Part shown: one piece after another, positions 3,148 to 40,170 of the stretch
How positions within the stretch are numbered: the first letter of the stretch is position 1
How the letters are laid out: each line of letters begins with the position of its first letter
IMG/VR virus record: IMGVR_UViG_3300022690_000439
Location: 1-40,170 of that record
Reading direction: 5' to 3' (one strand)
Source: a virus
DNA length: 40,170 nt
The notes under the pieces: generated by a model
The model's database searches: none
What the model was told of the DNA's origin: nothing
Seen by the model: the letters and a program-made list of their open reading frames with translations, nothing else
Made by a program: the position numbers and the translations under genes

Positions 3148-3175
3148 ACAACCAAACCAAAGAGAGAAATTAATC

Positions 3176-3379
3176 ATGAAAAAATTATCAATTGCATTAA
3201 TGGCTTTAATCTTGTCAGGCTGTGGGATTGTGCCGCAATTATCTCCAGTCGTAACAAGTGAGGCTTATAGTAGGGCAGAAATTGCATGTAAGAAGCACGG
3301 CGGCGTCAGAATGGTTAATCAGTCCATTGGCATTAAATACACGGCATATTGTAACCATGGGCACCAAGAATCGCTTTAG
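3176..3379 (+). CDS. Small lipoprotein
   Basis: A 67-residue product with signal peptide MKKLSIALMALILSGC: lipobox LSGC, lipidated Cys16. The mature part is about 50 residues with two further Cys (in IACKKHGG and TAYCNHG), which could form a disulfide. Ribosome site AGAGAGAAATTAATC. Position +2 after the Cys is Gly, so an outer-membrane destination is likely. Small phage lipoproteins of this size include superinfection-exclusion proteins; no family identified. Confidence 0.65.
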   Translation: MKKLSIALMALILSGCGIVPQLSPVVTSEAYSRAEIACKKHGGVRMVNQSIGIKYTAYCNHGHQESL

Positions 3380-7288: not shown

Positions 7289-8077
7289 ATGGCTAAAATG
7301 GCCCCGGCTTACATACAGCCACTAGAGACAAGCGCTCGAGGTGAAACTGGTAGTTTAACCAGACTTCAAGACGAAACGACTAGAATGCTTGAGTTATTCT
7401 TTACTAATAAGCTCGCAAAATTTCAATTAGCATCCTCACCGGATCCATTATCTAATAATTTCGACGTTTTAGCTGGTCACAGCATAGCTGTAGGTAATAT
7501 TATTGAATTAGGGAAAGCTGATAATTTTATACAGGCTGAAGTCATCACTGTAGTCACAAATGCTATATCAATAAATCAGATCATAGGCGGTGTTTACCCG
7601 ACCGGAGTAGACTTCGATAACTCATCAAAAGATATGCTTGTCGATGGCTCTGTAACTCCAGTTATATTTACCTTGAAGCCTTCACCCGGACAATTTGGGG
7701 ACATTACTAGAATTCTTATGGGCATTCAATCAACAACCCAAATGGATTTTAGTTTGTTTGGCGGAGCTGCGGCCTTAGCGAAAGGTTGCTTATTGAGGGT
7801 AAAAAGATCTAATGGCGAATTCAACAATTTATTTAGTTGGGCAACTAACGGCGGGTTTACACTAAGATCTTTAGATTCAATAACCCAAGCCAAAGTCGGC
7901 GGCGGCGAACATTCTTTTATTGCTCGATCATCATTTGGCGGACAAGATAAGCGCGGCGTGGTTGTTAGGTTGGAAGGCCTAGAGGGTGAAGAATTACAAA
8001 TTGTCATACAAGACGATTTAACATCGGGCAATACTTTATTGCAAATAATTGCTCAGGGCCACGAATTGGAGGTTTAG
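7289..8077 (+). CDS. Putative virion structural protein
   Basis: A 262-residue protein 12 bases after the previous gene (SD AAAGGAATTATC). The composition is beta-rich, with a C-terminal region (FSWATNGGFTLRSLDSITQAKVGGGEHSFIARSSFGGQDKRGVVVRL) typical of structural domains. I remember similar proteins next to portal genes in environmental siphoviruses but not their function. Its place between portal and minor head gene suggests a capsid vertex, decoration or head-fibre role. Confidence 0.65.
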   Translation: MAKMAPAYIQPLETSARGETGSLTRLQDETTRMLELFFTNKLAKFQLASSPDPLSNNFDVLAGHSIAVGNIIELGKADNFIQAEVITVVTNAISINQIIGGVYPTGVDFDNSSKDMLVDGSVTPVIFTLKPSPGQFGDITRILMGIQSTTQMDFSLFGGAAALAKGCLLRVKRSNGEFNNLFSWATNGGFTLRSLDSITQAKVGGGEHSFIARSSFGGQDKRGVVVRLEGLEGEELQIVIQDDLTSGNTLLQIIAQGHELEV

Positions 8078-24990: not shown

Positions 24991-25011
24991 ATCAGGGCTG
25001 TTACCCCTGAT
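24991..25011 (-). other. Intercistronic hairpin
   Basis: ATCAGGG (24991-24997), CTGTTAC loop, CCCTGAT (25005-25011): a perfect 7-bp stem at the stop of the nuclease gene. No U tract follows on the transcribed strand, so processing, translation control or weak termination are alternatives. Confidence 0.4.
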
Positions 25012-25279
25012 TAATGGCTATCACATCATCAATACAGTTGATAATTTTGTATTCACCTTGCCATAATTCTTTGAATTTTAATTCTCCAGTTGTTAGCTTT
25101 TGTGCACTAATCGGTTTTTCGCCGTCCTTTATTTCTACGACAATGGTTTTTCCATTTTTGCTAACAATAATATCAGCGCAATTTTTTAACTGACTAATGA
25201 TTAATACTGACCAGCCAAGATCACGAAAAGCTTTAACTATTTCAGGCTGATTTTTATCAACCCTTGCATTTCTCATCAT
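25001..25279 (-). CDS. VRR-NUC-like nuclease
   Basis: 92 residues from ATG 25279, which overlaps the upstream stop (ATGA) and has AAGGTG 9 bases ahead; a GTG at 25291 is less likely. RNARVDKNQPEIVKAFRDLGWSV (about 3-25) and later ADIIVSKNGKTIVVEIKDGEK with Asp, Glu and Lys (D-x-n-ExK) fit a PD-(D/E)xK fold of the VRR-NUC/small-resolvase kind. Probably resolves branched DNA or processes replication intermediates. Confidence 0.75.
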   Translation of the reverse strand: MMRNARVDKNQPEIVKAFRDLGWSVLIISQLKNCADIIVSKNGKTIVVEIKDGEKPISAQKLTTGELKFKELWQGEYKIINCIDDVIAINQG

Positions 25280-25557
25280 AAGTTTAAACACCTTTTTGTT
25301 TGATCTAACAACTCTTGCTCAGTGCCAAAGTTACTTTCAAATGATTCCCTTCCAGCATGGACCGCTTCGCCGTTATTACCCGTTCTATGATGAAAGGGGC
25401 ACAATGGTATTGTTTCATAGTTACTTGCGCGTTTTGACAGGGTTCCGTTGCCAACGTGGTGTATTTCTGCCGGAGTCCCTTCAAATCCAAGATTACAGCA
25501 AACAATACAACCCAAACCGGCAACCTTGCTTAAATATTTACTTTCTGCTTTTTTCAT
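25276..25557 (-). CDS. Ref-like HNH nuclease
   Basis: A 93-residue product: YLSKVAGLGCIVCCNLGFEG ... AEIHHVGNGTLSKRASNYETIPLCPFHHR ... AVHAGRESFESNFGTEQELL. Cys17/Cys20 and Cys53/His56/His57 would bind zinc, and His33-His34 make up the HNH active site. The layout is that of RecA-dependent nucleases of the P1 Ref type (PF16786), frequent beside DUF1367 and nin-region genes. Start overlaps the methyltransferase stop. Confidence 0.78.
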   Translation of the reverse strand: MKKAESKYLSKVAGLGCIVCCNLGFEGTPAEIHHVGNGTLSKRASNYETIPLCPFHHRTGNNGEAVHAGRESFESNFGTEQELLDQTKRCLNL

Positions 25558-25570
25558 TTCATCAACCTAT
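25554..25570. repeat. 17-bp direct repeat, left copy (methyltransferase boundary)
   Basis: TCATTTCATCAACCTAT occurs here and at 26261-26277, at both ends of the methyltransferase gene. On the coding strand it spells the RLMK end of the upstream gene, stop, and the next ATG. Start-to-start distance is 707 bases. Confidence 0.85.
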
Positions 25571-26264
25571 TTTTTGCTATTTCAAAGTAAGCTTCATCCA
25601 TTTCAATGCCGGTAAAGTCACGGCTTAGGTTTCTAGCAGCAATTGGTGTGGTACCGCCACCAAAACAAAAGTCCACAACATGATCGCCCTCATTGGTATA
25701 TGACTTTATTAGCCACTCCATGAACTCAACAGGCTTTTGGGTTGGGTGGTAACTGCCTTTTTGTTTGTCGCTAGAGAATTTTTGAACACTCCTAGGGTAT
25801 CGACTTGTTGATGAGTAGTCGGTTTTAACTATGCTCTTGCCATAACATTCAGATTGAACAGGCTTTCTTTTTGTGGAAACCATTTTGTGCCCGTGCGTCA
25901 TTTGAGGGTTAAATGTTGGCAGCTTGTTGTAGAATACAAGCGCTGTTTCGTGCGCCCTAAGTGGCATCTTTTTAGCATTAAGAAATCCAGTAGCGTTGGG
26001 TTTCTCCCATACCAGATCATATTTAAACATGGGCAAGTTACTGCAGGTTAATACGCTGGTAAATGGTTGAGCACAAGTAAGTACGATAACGCCACGAGGC
26101 TTAATTATCCGTTTTAATTGTTCCCACATTAACTCGAGGTCAATAATTGAATCCCATTTACAGCGAGTGGTACCGTAAGGTGGATCGGCTAACACCATAT
26201 CGATACTGCAGTCTGGTATTTCTTTCATTCGCTCGAGGCAATCGCCTAGCATTAAATTAATCAT
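25554..26264 (-). CDS. Beta-class DNA methyltransferase, copy 1
   Basis: A 236-residue protein. Catalytic motif ADPPYG is N-terminal (27-30 DPPY) and AdoMet motif I (DFCFGGGTT, about 198-206) is C-terminal, which is the beta order of N6-adenine/N4-cytosine enzymes. HPTQKP and ATGFLNAKKMP are also seen. Motif I reads FCFGGGTT instead of the usual FxGSGTT but keeps the key glycines. It shares about two thirds of residues with the copy at 29453. Methylates the phage genome, probably to evade restriction. Confidence 0.85.
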   Translation of the reverse strand: MINLMLGDCLERMKEIPDCSIDMVLADPPYGTTRCKWDSIIDLELMWEQLKRIIKPRGVIVLTCAQPFTSVLTCSNLPMFKYDLVWEKPNATGFLNAKKMPLRAHETALVFYNKLPTFNPQMTHGHKMVSTKRKPVQSECYGKSIVKTDYSSTSRYPRSVQKFSSDKQKGSYHPTQKPVEFMEWLIKSYTNEGDHVVDFCFGGGTTPIAARNLSRDFTGIEMDEAYFEIAKNRLMK

Positions 26265-26277
26265 TTCATCAACCTAT
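26261..26277. repeat. 17-bp direct repeat, right copy
   Basis: TCATTTCATCAACCTAT, identical to 25554-25570. Here it spans the stop of the gene ending at 26261 and the methyltransferase start. Recombination between the copies would remove the gene exactly and keep the ATGA coupling. Confidence 0.85.
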
Positions 26278-26464
26278 ATTTATTTAAGTACTCTTTAAAC
26301 TTTGCGTGAACTTCAGGGTTTAACTCCCTGTCCAGTTCAGATTTAACGGATTGCTTGCTTATCTGCCCGTTCTTAACTTTCCTGATAAGCATTGCAGCAT
26401 GTCTTTCTAGCTCAAGATCGTCTCGTTCCTGTTTGGTTAGAAGCGCTAAGTTAAATTTACTCAT
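26261..26464 (-). CDS. Small helical protein
   Basis: A 67-residue, highly charged helical protein (LLTKQERDDLELERHAAMLIRKVKNGQISKQSVKSELDREL), ending YRLMK like the methyltransferase ends NRLMK. Overlaps the DUF1367 gene by ATGA. Small proteins of this kind are often cro/nin-type accessory proteins; no family is recognised. Confidence 0.6.
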   Translation of the reverse strand: MSKFNLALLTKQERDDLELERHAAMLIRKVKNGQISKQSVKSELDRELNPEVHAKFKEYLNKYRLMK

Positions 26465-27870: not shown

Positions 27871-28725
27871 TTAATTCCACACCATAATTTCAACCGTGTT
27901 TCGGCCTTTCTTTTTAGTCGACGCGCATCTGTCGGTTGTTGTTTTTAATATTCTAACTTTATACTTTTTGATCCAAGCATCCAGCTCATGGTTTTTTATA
28001 TCGTTCGCTATTAGCTGATTAAAATAAACAAACTTGGTGTCAGACTCGACAGCGAGATCTATTTTATTAAACAGTGCTATATCTTGTTTCTCAGCCCATC
28101 CAGTAGACTCGTTATAGGTTGCCGTAGTGTTTGAGTAGGGAGGATCGATTAATACAAGATCGAAATCGCAAAAATTTATATCCGAGTAGTTCATATTAAC
28201 AAAGTTAATATACCTGCCTTTTATTGCGCGTTGATAGTTCGATAGTTTGCTTTTCATTCTTTTGTTAAAGCTGGATCTGTTTTTGCCAAAGGGCATATTG
28301 AAACCGCCTTTTAGATTGAACCTAAGCTGGTTATTAAATGAATTTGTCATTAGTAAATAAAGCTTATCCGCGCTAGGGGATTCGTTATATTCTCGCCTCA
28401 AATCCAAAAATGCAGGCTCGTTTATTTTTGACATCCCTCTATTATCGAACTCTGAAGATATTGACTCAACGGTTATCAATCCAGACTGTACCGCAAGGTG
28501 AAGCCCAATGACTTTATTAGAAATATCACTAGCGGTAATACTCCACGCTTTAGGTAATTTTGATATTAAATCACCGCCGCCAACAAATGGATCTAACACT
28601 TTTAAGTTTTTATCTGCGGCACGAGGCAGTACTTCGAAAAGCTCTTTTAAATAACGATGCTTTGAACCGGTATAATTAAACGGGTTTGAATATTCCGCTT
28701 TCAGGTATTCGGGTTTTATATTCAT
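27871..28725 (-). CDS. Dam-like DNA adenine methyltransferase
   Basis: A 284-residue alpha-class (D12) enzyme: NPFNYTGSKHRYLKEL (14-29) as in Dam NyfkY.GgK, AdoMet motif VLDPFVGGGDL (about 43-53), and catalytic LIDPPYSNT (DPPY near 193). Length is normal for this group. It would methylate adenine, for example GATC in Dam, but specificity cannot be read here. The third methyltransferase in the leftward unit. Confidence 0.85.
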   Translation of the reverse strand: MNIKPEYLKAEYSNPFNYTGSKHRYLKELFEVLPRAADKNLKVLDPFVGGGDLISKLPKAWSITASDISNKVIGLHLAVQSGLITVESISSEFDNRGMSKINEPAFLDLRREYNESPSADKLYLLMTNSFNNQLRFNLKGGFNMPFGKNRSSFNKRMKSKLSNYQRAIKGRYINFVNMNYSDINFCDFDLVLIDPPYSNTTATYNESTGWAEKQDIALFNKIDLAVESDTKFVYFNQLIANDIKNHELDAWIKKYKVRILKTTTDRCASTKKKGRNTVEIMVWN

Positions 28726-29452: not shown

Positions 29453-30172
29453 CTATGCTGAATCTATTCGCTCTTTGGCGAGGTTAAAATAACCCTCATC
29501 CATTTCGATACCAATAAAATCACGGTTTAGGTTTTTTGCTGCAACGCCAGTGGTACCGCTTCCCATTGTAAAATCTAAAACCGAGTCACCTTCGTTGGTG
29601 TATGTTTTTATTAGGTACTCCATTAGCGCGACTGGCTTTTGAGTTGGGTGTAAATTGCATTTTTGCTTGTCAGAGCTGAACTTTTGAACGCTTCTTGGGT
29701 ACCGACTTGTTGAGTCGTAATTTGTTTTTTCAAATGTCTTGCCATAGCATTCGGATTTAATACCAACTCTCTTTGTTTTAACCCTTTCGTGACCGTATGT
29801 AATTTGAGGGTTATACGTTGGGAGCTTACTGTAAAAAACCAATACATTTTCATGCGCCTTTAGGGGCATCTTCTTGGCGTTAAAAAACCCTGACGCTGCA
29901 GGTTTCTCGTATATCCATTCGTACCTTAACATTGACAGGTTTGAAGCTCCCAAAACTTTGTCGAATGGCGTTTGAGCCATTAACACTATTACGCCATTAG
30001 GCTTGATTATTCTTTTTAACTGCGGCCACATTAAATCAAGATCAATTAAAGAGTCCCATTTACACATGGTCGTACCATAGGGCGGATCGGTAAATATCAT
30101 ATCGATACTGCAGTCTGGTATTTCCTTCATTCGCTCGAGACAATCCCCTAGCATTAATTTTATTGCTGCCAT
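29453..30172 (-). CDS. Beta-class DNA methyltransferase, copy 2
   Basis: 239 residues. DPPYG (29-33) and motif I DFTMGSGTTGVAA near the C-terminus, both fully canonical. It shares most of its sequence with copy 1 at 25554-26264; their first 60 coding bases (from the start inward) differ at only 3 positions. Divergence concentrates in the central target-recognition part (LMAQTPFDKVLGASNLSMLRYEWIYEKPAASGFFNA), so the two may modify different sites. SD AGGGGTATAGA. Confidence 0.87.
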   Translation of the reverse strand: MAAIKLMLGDCLERMKEIPDCSIDMIFTDPPYGTTMCKWDSLIDLDLMWPQLKRIIKPNGVIVLMAQTPFDKVLGASNLSMLRYEWIYEKPAASGFFNAKKMPLKAHENVLVFYSKLPTYNPQITYGHERVKTKRVGIKSECYGKTFEKTNYDSTSRYPRSVQKFSSDKQKCNLHPTQKPVALMEYLIKTYTNEGDSVLDFTMGSGTTGVAAKNLNRDFIGIEMDEGYFNLAKERIDSA

Positions 30173-34696: not shown

Positions 34697-35434
34697 ATGA
34701 AAATATTAGAAATAAAGCAGGGTAGCGATCAATGGCACGAGGAGCGCTGGGCACGAGTTACGGGAACTAGAATAGAGTCGGCGCTAGGTGCATGTTATTC
34801 AAATGCGAAAGCTCAGTGGGTCATGGGTGGCAAGACCTGGGAATTTGACGGCGATAAGTTGGCTTGCGTAAAAGAGGGGAAGCAAACAAAGGCTAGCCGC
34901 GACAAACAGGTCACATTGATTCTTGAACTTGTTTCTGAACGTCAAAGCGAAATGGAAATAAATGATTTCTGTTCGGCGGATATGGAGCGCGGTAACGATT
35001 TAGAGCCACATTCAGGTAAGGCGGCAGAGCATCGCCACGGAATCAAACTAGAGTCTTGCGGTATGCTACAGAGCGATACTCTACCATCGTTTAAATACAG
35101 TCCTGATTTCGTATGTTACAAAGATGGCGTTATCGTCGGCGGCTACGAAACAAAGTCAAAAGCGGGCAAAAAACACATCGAATACATCATGACCGACGAA
35201 GTGCCAAGCGAACATTTGTTGCAATGCTTATGCCCTATGATTATGGATGACTGCGTAAAGTGGTGGATATTTGGCCATTTTGATGATCGAAATAAGGTTA
35301 ACAATCTTTTCACTAAAGGCATTAGACGCGAAAATTACGAAGAATTCATCAATGAGGCTAGAACTTTATTAGTGGCATTTTTGGCAGAAGTCGATTTAAC
35401 AGTAGAAAAAATGGGCGGTGAATATCATGGCTAA
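34697..35434 (+). CDS. Lambda-type exonuclease (YqaJ)
   Basis: A 245-residue protein: QGSDQWHEERWARVTGTRI (8-26), SPDFVCYKDGVIVGGYETKSKAGKKH (135-160) with Asp137, Glu151 and Lys153 as PD-(D/E)xK residues, and EHLLQCLC with Gln176. The order and spacing match lambda exo and YqaJ-type recombinases (lambda exo length 226). It digests 5' strands for single-strand annealing recombination. Preceded by early genes and followed by a recombination-cluster protein. Confidence 0.88.
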   Translation: MKILEIKQGSDQWHEERWARVTGTRIESALGACYSNAKAQWVMGGKTWEFDGDKLACVKEGKQTKASRDKQVTLILELVSERQSEMEINDFCSADMERGNDLEPHSGKAAEHRHGIKLESCGMLQSDTLPSFKYSPDFVCYKDGVIVGGYETKSKAGKKHIEYIMTDEVPSEHLLQCLCPMIMDDCVKWWIFGHFDDRNKVNNLFTKGIRRENYEEFINEARTLLVAFLAEVDLTVEKMGGEYHG

Positions 35435-35948
35435 TGTAAAACGGGCAATGCAATCAAAATCAGATCAATTAAATTATGTTGATGTTGGCAATGGAAGTTT
35501 GATTGCTCTAATTGAGTCGGTTCATGTTACTAACTCAGATCAGCAACCAGTAACAATTAACTTTGCTGGCTGTAATGGCAAGCCATACAAACCAAACAAG
35601 GGAATGATTCGAGTTCTGGCCGGTGCCTGGGGTGAAGAGTCCGACTGTTGGGTTGGTAAAACTATTAAAATAATTGGCGATGAGACTGTTAAATGGGGTG
35701 GTGAAGAGGTCGGTGGTTTAGTTGTTGGCGCTTTGTCTCACATAGACCAGTCAGGATATACCGCATACATACAGAAAAACAAGCGCGTTAGAGTTAAAAA
35801 AACTATCCCTCTATTAGTTATCGAACCACCAAAGTTAACCGATGACGATCAGTCTTGGATTGATGCAGCAAATAAAGATAGTAGCGTATTAGACCAAATT
35901 ACAGATCCGCTATACAAGCAATTCATTATTGACAATCTAAAAGGGTAA
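35427..35948 (+). CDS. Recombination-cluster protein of unknown function
   Basis: 173 residues from ATG 35427 (MANVKRAMQSKSDQLNYVDV), overlapping the exonuclease by 8 bases. The text LNYVDVGNGSLIALIESV ... QQPVTINFAGCNGKPYKPNKGMIRVLAGAWG ... WVGKTIKIIGDETVKWGGEEVGGLVVGALSHI is a pattern I know from phage genes next to exonuclease/SSB genes ('QPV.i.l.G...rPYkP.KsM.RvL...WG'). It may be the annealing partner, but the fold is not recognised. Confidence 0.7.
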   Translation: MANVKRAMQSKSDQLNYVDVGNGSLIALIESVHVTNSDQQPVTINFAGCNGKPYKPNKGMIRVLAGAWGEESDCWVGKTIKIIGDETVKWGGEEVGGLVVGALSHIDQSGYTAYIQKNKRVRVKKTIPLLVIEPPKLTDDDQSWIDAANKDSSVLDQITDPLYKQFIIDNLKG

Positions 35949-35952
35949 TATC

Positions 35953-36396
35953 ATGGCTAAACGTATCGTAGCAAAAACAGGTTCATACACTAATAACGAA
36001 GGCCAGGAAAAAGGTGAGTACACCAAACTAGGTGTAATGCTTAACAATCAAAACGGCGATTACATGCTGTTAGATCCAACAATTTCACTAGCTGGCGTTT
36101 TATTAAAGCAAAATGCGCTTGCGGCAAAAAACAACGGGCAGCAGCGCGACATGGTTATGATCTCAATCTTTGACGATGACAACCAGAACCAGCAAAATAA
36201 TAACAACCAAGGTCAGCAGCAGAAAAGTAGCCAACAACAAGCGCCTAGACAGCAACAGCGCGCACCGCAACAAAAGCAGGGAGGCTTTCAACAACAACAA
36301 GCGCAACAGCAGCAAGCACCACAACACGCGCCACAACAACAACAAGCTCAAGCGCCTGATTTAGATGATGGATGGGACGACGATATTCCTTTTTAG
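35953..36396 (+). CDS. ssb: Gln-rich single-stranded DNA-binding protein
   Basis: A 147-residue protein: compact N-terminal domain (about 1-75, KRIVAKTGSYTNNEGQEKGEYTKLGVM ... YMLLDPTISLAGVLL ... RDMVMISIFDDDN), a Gln/Asn/Pro-rich linker (about 76-135), and the tip DDGWDDDIPF, the SSB C-terminal partner-binding motif. Phages with lambda-exo systems often have this unusual short OB-like SSB. The SD for the ATG at 35953 is AAAGGGTAATATC. Confidence 0.8.
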   Translation: MAKRIVAKTGSYTNNEGQEKGEYTKLGVMLNNQNGDYMLLDPTISLAGVLLKQNALAAKNNGQQRDMVMISIFDDDNQNQQNNNNQGQQQKSSQQQAPRQQQRAPQQKQGGFQQQQAQQQQAPQHAPQQQQAQAPDLDDGWDDDIPF

Positions 36397-36456: not shown

Positions 36457-36477
36457 AACAACTAACAGGCGGATGAA

Positions 36478-36759
36478 ATGAAATTAATAAAAGATAAAAT
36501 CAAGAAAATCGAAGATGCTGAGAAAGTTATTGATAATTTAAATGAGTTATCAAAAACATGTGAGGCATCGCATCTAGATCACGCCGTTTGTTTCATTAAT
36601 GGCGGGTCGTTAAGTTCGGGCATAGCCATTGATGCTGATTTGTTTGATGTAACCATCAAGTCTCAAATAGAAAGATTGGAGAATTCTATTGCAGATGACA
36701 AAGCTTTTGTAATGGGTATTGAATTGATGCTTTCAAAATCAAACCAAGGAGAAGGTTAA
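36478..36759 (+). CDS. Coiled-coil early protein, paralogue B
   Basis: A 93-residue relative of the gene at 34163, same length. It starts with a basic helix (MKLIKDKIKKIEDAEKVIDNL) and shares CFxNG, DADLFDVTIKSQIERLE and the ending ELMLS. The exact Cys-Leu-Cys is not kept. SD is GGCGGATGAA. Two paralogues in one operon indicate duplication. Confidence 0.6.
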   Translation: MKLIKDKIKKIEDAEKVIDNLNELSKTCEASHLDHAVCFINGGSLSSGIAIDADLFDVTIKSQIERLENSIADDKAFVMGIELMLSKSNQGEG

Positions 36760-39863: not shown

Positions 39864-40170
39864 TTTTTTGATTTGTTCTGTGATAATTATTGGCCTACTA
39901 TTCGAGTGGGCCAATAAATCATGGCTAATGCCAAATACTAATTACTTTCAATTCTATGTAACGAGCTCAGCTATTCGCGCTGTTCTATTAATATGCTCAG
40001 CCTTGGTTGTTTATTTTATTCGCGGCTCTATCCTTTTGTGGCTGTTCATGTTCGTAAATCTCTGTGCTATATTTCTTAACATAATATATTTAGAACCAAG
40101 TAATTATTATATTTTTAGTGATTTCAGGCAGGGTTATTTCGCCCCAACTTACCGGGCCTTAGAGGTAGTT
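39841..40170 (+). CDS. Multi-span membrane protein, N-terminal part (continues at base 1)
   Basis: The frame opens at ATG 39841 and runs off the end; bases 40027-40170 repeat 1-144, so the gene continues into the first 267 bases. The full product is 150 residues: MAIRNQTNFLICSVIIIGLLFEWANKSW..., hydrophobic segments near 9-22 and 42-82 and one more near the C-terminus. Translation is likely coupled to the 17-codon leader. It is a lysis-region membrane protein, possibly an accessory holin. Family unknown. Confidence 0.7.
   Translation, partial: MAIRNQTNFLICSVIIIGLLFEWANKSWLMPNTNYFQFYVTSSAIRAVLLICSALVVYFIRGSILLWLFMFVNLCAIFLNIIYLEPSNYYIFSDFRQGYFAPTYRALEVV
40027..40170. repeat. Terminal direct repeat, right copy
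   Basis: Identical to 1-144. Joined, they close the circle and restore the membrane-protein gene that spans the break. Confidence 0.95.

Follow-up and report, generated by a model that had tools for sequence, protein, structure and literature searches.

According to the available text of Pope et al. 2011 (PMC3029335), gene 68 of Island3 is present in one mycobacteriophage and absent from Brujita, the 3' terminal part of the upstream gene recurs at its own 3' end, and Brujita carries one copy of the repeated sequence; general recombination was proposed for this case, and the event was tied to recombination at boundary sequences. These are short conserved sequences between genes which have been regarded as the places where modules join (Susskind and Botstein 1978; Clark et al. 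2001, for HK620; cited in PMC3233612, PMC3029335 and PMC2327257), and the accessible part of PMC3233612 sets out both the boundary-sequence model and its limits. The manner in which phages exchange single genes while tightly coupled operons stay intact is disputed, the excerpts at hand opposing recombination at short boundaries to illegitimate recombination combined with selection (PMC3233612, PMC3945230). A moron, as described in the available text of PMC3029335, is a gene with its own promoter and terminator; in the lambda nin region, genes are strung together by ATGA overlaps (Kroger and Hobom 1982, as cited in PMC8022706); and the start-associated sequences of Cluster K mycobacteriophages are, in the accessible portion of PMC3203893, short repeats over the ribosome-binding site near the start codons of many genes. 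Our literature search found no paper joining the lambdoid nin region with boundary sequences.

The window, i.e. the whole stretch of DNA analysed here, comprises the 40,170 bases of a virus record, and its minus strand carries a row of overlapping genes encoding a NinB/Orf-type protein, a theta-like protein, a DNA methyltransferase (named MTase1), an HNH nuclease and a 92-aa ORF (Table 1). With its NinB/Orf family member and recombination nucleases in an overlapping gene row, this operon is a lambda-nin-like recombination region: as in lambda nin, NinB-type and recombination-nuclease genes are packed with ATGA overlaps, whereas the window's row differs from lambda nin in the presence of the theta-like gene and the methyltransferase, and the sequences are distant. 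MTase1 shares 4 nt with each of its neighbours, so that no intergenic space is present on either side, and on this gene layout the possibility that it is a moron, with its own promoter and terminator between the neighbouring genes, was rejected. The host is probably a marine gammaproteobacterium, because the terminase shares 74.5% identity with its counterpart in Shewanella phage 1/41, a phage whose annotation does not contain the NinB-HNH block. A third DNA methyltransferase, of the D12 class (PF02086), is located at 27871-28725 within the same gene row as MTase1, and the ends of the record are identical over 144 bases (1-144 and 40027-40170), so that the contig is either circularly closed or carries a terminal repeat.

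Table 1. Coordinates of the genes and repeat copies in the gene row around MTase1
Feature	Position	Strand	Evidence
NinB/Orf-type recombination mediator (DUF1367), 195 aa	26461..27048	-	Pfam PF07105 E 2.7e-53; phrog_319 NinB/Orf E 5e-51
Theta-like gene (DUF3283 / DNA polymerase III theta family), 67 aa, end YRLMK-stop	26261..26464	-	PF11686 E 2.3e-6; phrog_1105 E 3.6e-7
Junction repeat copy, theta end / methyltransferase start, ATAGGTTGATGAAATGA on coding strand	26261..26277	-	exact match; reading frames
MTase1, N6/N4 DNA methyltransferase, 236 aa, bracketed gene, end NRLMK-stop	25554..26264	-	PF01555 E 4.7e-30; phrog_67 E 1.6e-73
Junction repeat copy, methyltransferase end / HNH start	25554..25570	-	exact match; reading frames
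HNH nuclease, RecA-dependent recombination-enhancement (Ref) type, 93 aa	25276..25557	-	PF16786 E 4.1e-11; phrog_1588 E 3.8e-31
92-aa ORF after HNH	25001..25279	-	no family match; homologue follows HNH in L092 and L102

MTase1 is bracketed by a 17-bp direct repeat, TCATTTCATCAACCTAT, which occurs exactly at the two positions given in Table 1 and nowhere else in the 40,170 bases, and which on the coding strand of each copy reads ATAGGTTGATGAAATGA. Each copy encodes the R-L-M-K-stop end of the upstream gene together with the next ATG, which overlaps the stop, and the AGG within it is plausibly a Shine-Dalgarno sequence. The starts of the two copies are separated by 707 bp, and a computed 707-bp deletion joins theta to HNH with the same ATGA overlap. 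An earlier reading of the DNA, made from the letters alone, had put forward an exact 17-bp repeat flanking the methyltransferase gene and noticed nowhere but at its two ends, the presence of a gene end (RLMK, stop) and the next ATG in each copy, and the restoration of the ATGA overlap upon deletion of one repeat plus the gene, and the copy counts, reading frames and deletion arithmetic bear all of this out, a third site being obtained only if three mismatches are allowed (36465-36481, minus strand, at another gene start). At this tolerance of at most three mismatches, 0 of 100 shuffles contained at least three matches to the 17-mer. Precise excision of MTase1 is at present a matter of arithmetic, with no observed event. 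The label "copy 1", which the same reading gave to the gene, is apt, as a paralogous second methyltransferase of the MTase1 family is located at 29453-30172; it has 71% amino-acid identity to MTase1, and the two genes share one 27-nt exact match.

With respect to Island3 gene 68, the MTase1 case is alike in that the 3' end of the gene upstream recurs at the end of a single gene; in the available account the Island3 repeat is of about 50-60 bp and an empty relative is known, whereas the MTase1 repeat is of 17 bp and no single-copy empty relative was found for it. Repeats over gene starts were also observed elsewhere in the window: a 14-nt repeat, AATATCATGGCTAA, covers two successive gene starts (35421-35434 and 35947-35960), its copies bracketing one gene that has its ATG at 35427 and its end at 35948, leaders of the similar form TATCATGGCTAAA are present at 7289 and 11994, and a 16-nt repeat, ATCATGAAAAAATTAT, lies over two gene starts at 1553-1568 and 3173-3188.

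The length and the placement of the repeat have to be judged separately. The longest exact direct repeats in the window are one of 27 nt, one of 18 nt, the MTase1-flanking one of 17 nt and then one of 16 nt, and a direct repeat of at least 17 nt was present in 9 of 100 simulated first-order Markov sequences, so that a length of 17 nt is unremarkable and repeat length alone was dropped as evidence. In-register placement at both junctions of one gene, unlike length, is rare. This was assessed in a survey of the fetched loci and the window, restricted to genes of at least 60 aa with a 4-nt stop/start overlap at both ends and with duplicates removed; the loci originated from methyltransferase, HNH, theta and NinB searches and are not a random phage sample. 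Among 192 such doubly coupled genes, 189 had 0-10 nt of in-register identity between the two junctions and the other three had 16, 17 and 19 nt, while only 3 of the 1,678 same-locus junction pairs exceeded 11 nt, each of them bracketing a single gene. Simulated junction pairs in which the position-specific composition was kept reached at least 16 nt at a frequency of 6e-6 per pair, and cross-locus pairs filtered for non-homology did so in 43 of 194,333 cases, with one-sided mosaic homologies still among them. In a second set of 53 loci (775,830 bases) containing 71 doubly coupled genes, one gene reached 15 nt and one 12 nt, the others being at 0-10 nt. The loci fetched for the L098 repeat described below (L240-L248) were excluded from the simulated and cross-locus comparisons, the second set and the following test.

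In a looser test, exact repeats of at least 14 nt located 130-2500 apart were scored for bracketing exactly one ORF, which was the case for 16 of 95 repeats in the second set and 9 of 113 in the first, as compared to means of 1.48 and 1.28, respectively, upon random shifting (0 of 200 shifts reached the observed count). This corresponds to approximately 7 to 11 times the random-shift expectation, for counts which include runs of small genes sharing a leader, the tandem methyltransferase pair of L080 and one contig present in both sets (L105 and L249 being the same contig, so that one 22-nt case is counted twice); of the 16 second-set cases, L251 contributes four, L249 three and L257 two, and some resemble rows of small genes with a common leader. 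A joined-flank search across the fetched loci produced matches for 2 of the 25 bracketing cases, one being L080. At L080:3007-4033, two related methyltransferase genes overlap in tandem and a 16-nt repeat is found at both starts; this is a tandem pair and no insertion. Several genes in L251, L249, L257 and L254 are bracketed by repeats of 15-30 nt over leaders and starts, in runs of small genes.

The other two genes of the survey with long junction identity were retrieved from loci not selected for repeats, and both have relatives in which the gene is missing. In L015, copies of GGAGGTGGGGTGTGAA stand on either side of a 113-aa gene located between a DnaB-like gene and a methyltransferase; a single exact copy of GGAGGTGGGGTGTGAA marks the joint at which these two neighbours meet directly in L018 and L019, and in L021 the corresponding joint carries a one-letter variant. 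In Klebsiella phage ST405-OXA48phi1.2 (L098), a DUF4752 gene is bracketed by CGAGGGGGCCGACAAATGA, of which Klebsiella phage RothC, without the DUF4752 gene, has one copy at the joint of an Ea22-like gene with the same downstream gene. DUF4752 is followed by a different gene in an E. coli prophage, which has the same right-hand joint as L098; among further relatives of L098, the left joint alone is exact in L243 and L244, the right joint is a variant in L241 and L242, and neither joint is present in L245 and L246. Because relatives of L015 and L098 have single-copy empty sites, insertion of genes into coupled junctions with duplication of the junction does occur.

With regard to MTase1 itself, the interval between NinB and HNH was compared among relatives. 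NinB is directly beside HNH in Vibrio phage 1.134.O and Oceanospirillum phage GJ44 (L097 and L099) and in 6 of 8 checked bacterial-genome loci. In other loci the interval contains two small ORFs (L102), a cytosine methyltransferase (L105), or theta and two small ORFs, with small ORFs between theta and HNH (L197); L089 has the order NinB-theta-HNH-RusA without a methyltransferase, and in L087 both theta and a methyltransferase lie between the NinB side and HNH, in the window's theta-methyltransferase-HNH order. The MTase1 family was directly upstream of HNH once among 85 distinct HNH genes, in a tally for which labels were taken from named reference proteins only, 45 upstream genes being unlabelled and 28 cases having no neighbour within the distance rule. 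In L229, NinB is 94% identical to that of the window and no theta is present behind it, and the homology of L102 to the window begins at the HNH start codon (ATG); from these two cases, and from the unrelated flanks around the block shared with L087, the operon borders are mosaic joints which coincide with gene borders.

Theta gave no match in phage records at E 0.01, and a theta alignment search of viral contigs returned three loci, one of which (L100) is a second copy of the L089 contig; a search with NinB (P0005) returned two loci, and alignment A3 was left out as it mixed two NinB families. Theta was matched in 47 of 394 genomes, where among the 30 loci listed and checked NinB and HNH were found together only in L197, while HNH was matched in 5 of 395 genomes of the G294 family and in 25 of 394 genomes of the G294 order, the 8 strongest new loci (L302-L309) being checked. 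Joined theta-HNH flanks with a single 17-mer had no match in the joined-flank search of the fetched loci, and the nearest empty arrangement, in L089, has an unrelated junction sequence (7/17 against the 17-mer) in a locus far diverged from the window (theta at about 41%). Among the loci compared, the slot that MTase1 occupies in the window is empty or carries other genes, except in L087, and none has theta and HNH abutting over a single 17-mer.

The exact 17-mer is present in four viral contigs, in three of which an ORF of at most 14 aa follows while in one it precedes a possible 55-aa ORF; as none of the four has it between two genes of at least 60 aa, it is not a shared or reused docking sequence, and the proposal of a reusable docking site made in the sequence-only reading is not upheld. 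The proposal, from the same source, that the gene is a cassette added at a coupling junction holds in part: it agrees with the relatives in which the slot is empty or has other contents and with the empty sites related to L015 and L098, whereas no empty junction with a single 17-mer was found and the slot is filled in L087 too. The locus resembles boundary-sequence recombination in having the same short sequence at both MTase1 borders, across gene borders and with mosaic joints there; boundary sequences are, however, shared among phages, while the MTase1 17-mer is not shared at the gene junctions of other phages. An insertion of the Island3 type is therefore claimed for MTase1, and a shared boundary sequence is not.

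L087 is the one relative which is syntenic with the window at this locus, the flanks outside the shared block being unrelated. Its two junctions match the 17-mer at 13/17 and, at the right-hand joint, 15/17, as compared to a median of 8/17 among 608 other ATGA junctions (five of which reach 13 and none 15); since L087 is homologous here, these values are expected and do not constitute independent proof. The exact repeat is absent from L087, whose junctions have the 9 nt ATGAAATGA in common and differ in the AGGTTG part; the theta end of the window reads AGGTTG where that of L087 reads CGAGTA, though the adjoining sequence is nearly identical, and the right joint of L087 contains a 5-bp tandem ATAGG. 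The window and L087 are 85-95% identical near the start of the methyltransferase and 88% identical where it ends, but mostly 38-75% in the interior, while the L087 methyltransferase is nearer to the second methyltransferase of the window (70%) than to MTase1 (64%). Most simply, these values would mean that the common ancestor of the window and L087 already carried a gene in the slot, and that a later exchange replaced the body of the methyltransferase while its conserved ends stayed in place. A recent or excisable insertion of MTase1 is not supported because the L087 slot also holds a methyltransferase and, the slot being filled in both comparable lineages, the direction and age of the event are not fixed.

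Taken together, we lean with moderate confidence to the view that MTase1 is a cargo gene which entered a coupled theta/HNH junction with duplication of that junction. MTase1 would have entered the translationally coupled theta-HNH junction of the nin-like recombination operon through recombination at, or duplicating, the short junction sequence composed of the upstream stop, the ribosome-binding AGG and the next ATG. As the duplicated junction carries these three elements, translational coupling would go on working at both joints, and the copies of the junction would persist as a direct repeat. We infer that entry took place as for the L015 and L098 genes, probably before the split from the L087 phage, and that the interior of the methyltransferase was subsequently exchanged by recombination inside its conserved ends; from the available text of PMC2327257 and PMC3945230, phage annealing recombinases or host RecA would be the likely agents. 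The RLMK ending was found in none of 80 methyltransferase relatives (one of them cut before the stop). Relatives of theta, by contrast, terminate in YRVMK or continue through YRVLE; the tail of MTase1 thus resembles that of theta, which supports a theta origin of the joint.

Convergence without any insertion, in which two coupled junctions, each requiring a fixed spacing of AGG, stop and ATG, both came to end in R-L-M-K by constraint and chance, is in our estimate quite unlikely: although the simulations place a 17-nt repeat somewhere in the genome in 9 of 100 cases, other starts in the window look alike (e.g. the 16 nt at 1553/3173 and the 3-mismatch 17-mer) and L087 lacks the exact repeat, in-register pairs of at least 16 nt arose at only 6e-6 in simulations with position-specific composition, 0 of the 1,675 other same-locus pairs exceeded 11 nt, and the methyltransferase relatives do not have the RLMK tail. 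The junctions might instead have already contained ATGAAATGA and the AGG, the rest being spread later by template switching or gene conversion in the window's lineage, an explanation that suits the L087 junctions, both with ATGAAATGA and divergent in the AGGTTG part, as well as the exchange of AGGTTG for CGAGTA amid nearly identical sequence; it requires a second event beyond insertion, and the 15/17 match of the right-hand L087 joint implies that most of the sequence was there before, and we hold it to be unlikely.

That the repeat actively recombines, the methyltransferase being cut out and replaced on a regular basis, seems highly improbable, even if the deletion arithmetic restores coupling, relatives (L105, L197) have other cargo in the corresponding interval and, according to the accessible part of PMC2327257, RecET recombines repeats of 5-13 bp at a low frequency of about 1e-8. 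No sign of present-day MTase1 excision and no empty allele were found among the relatives examined, the unit has no recombinase gene, the 17-mer is not reused at gene junctions in viral contigs, and L087 also has the methyltransferase. An autonomous mobile element was likewise rejected, the methyltransferase being the only annotated gene between the copies, with no recombinase or transposase. Finally, the repeat spans two gene starts and could be taken for a translational or regulatory element before several genes, such as the repeats described for Cluster K mycobacteriophages in the available text of PMC3203893; those are found at many genes, whereas the MTase1 repeat is found only at the two ends of one gene, with a single 3-mismatch copy besides, and this explanation appears extremely improbable. 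Membership of the start-associated class, in which an element precedes many unlinked genes, was rejected on this copy number.

The MTase1 repeat is thus most likely the mark of an extra gene slotted into a packed gene row by a known phage gene-swap route, and no new kind of mobile element; it is counted as a known type of event because the same kind has already been published, for Island3 gene 68 and Brujita. For this locus, the proposed insertion of MTase1 at the theta/HNH junction accounts for a methyltransferase gained between recombination genes, as one more example of a mechanism that is not new. We propose, tentatively and as a doubtful extension, that junction duplication may be a general and countable way for packed phage operons to gain genes, and that the repeat would later permit precise loss or replacement, so that coupled junctions would act as reversible cargo slots, MTase1 being one such slot with its body already swapped between the window and L087. 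A repeat over the stop, the Shine-Dalgarno sequence and the start shows how the addition of a gene can leave both joints translatable, and the survey suggests that the scars of junction duplication can be counted.
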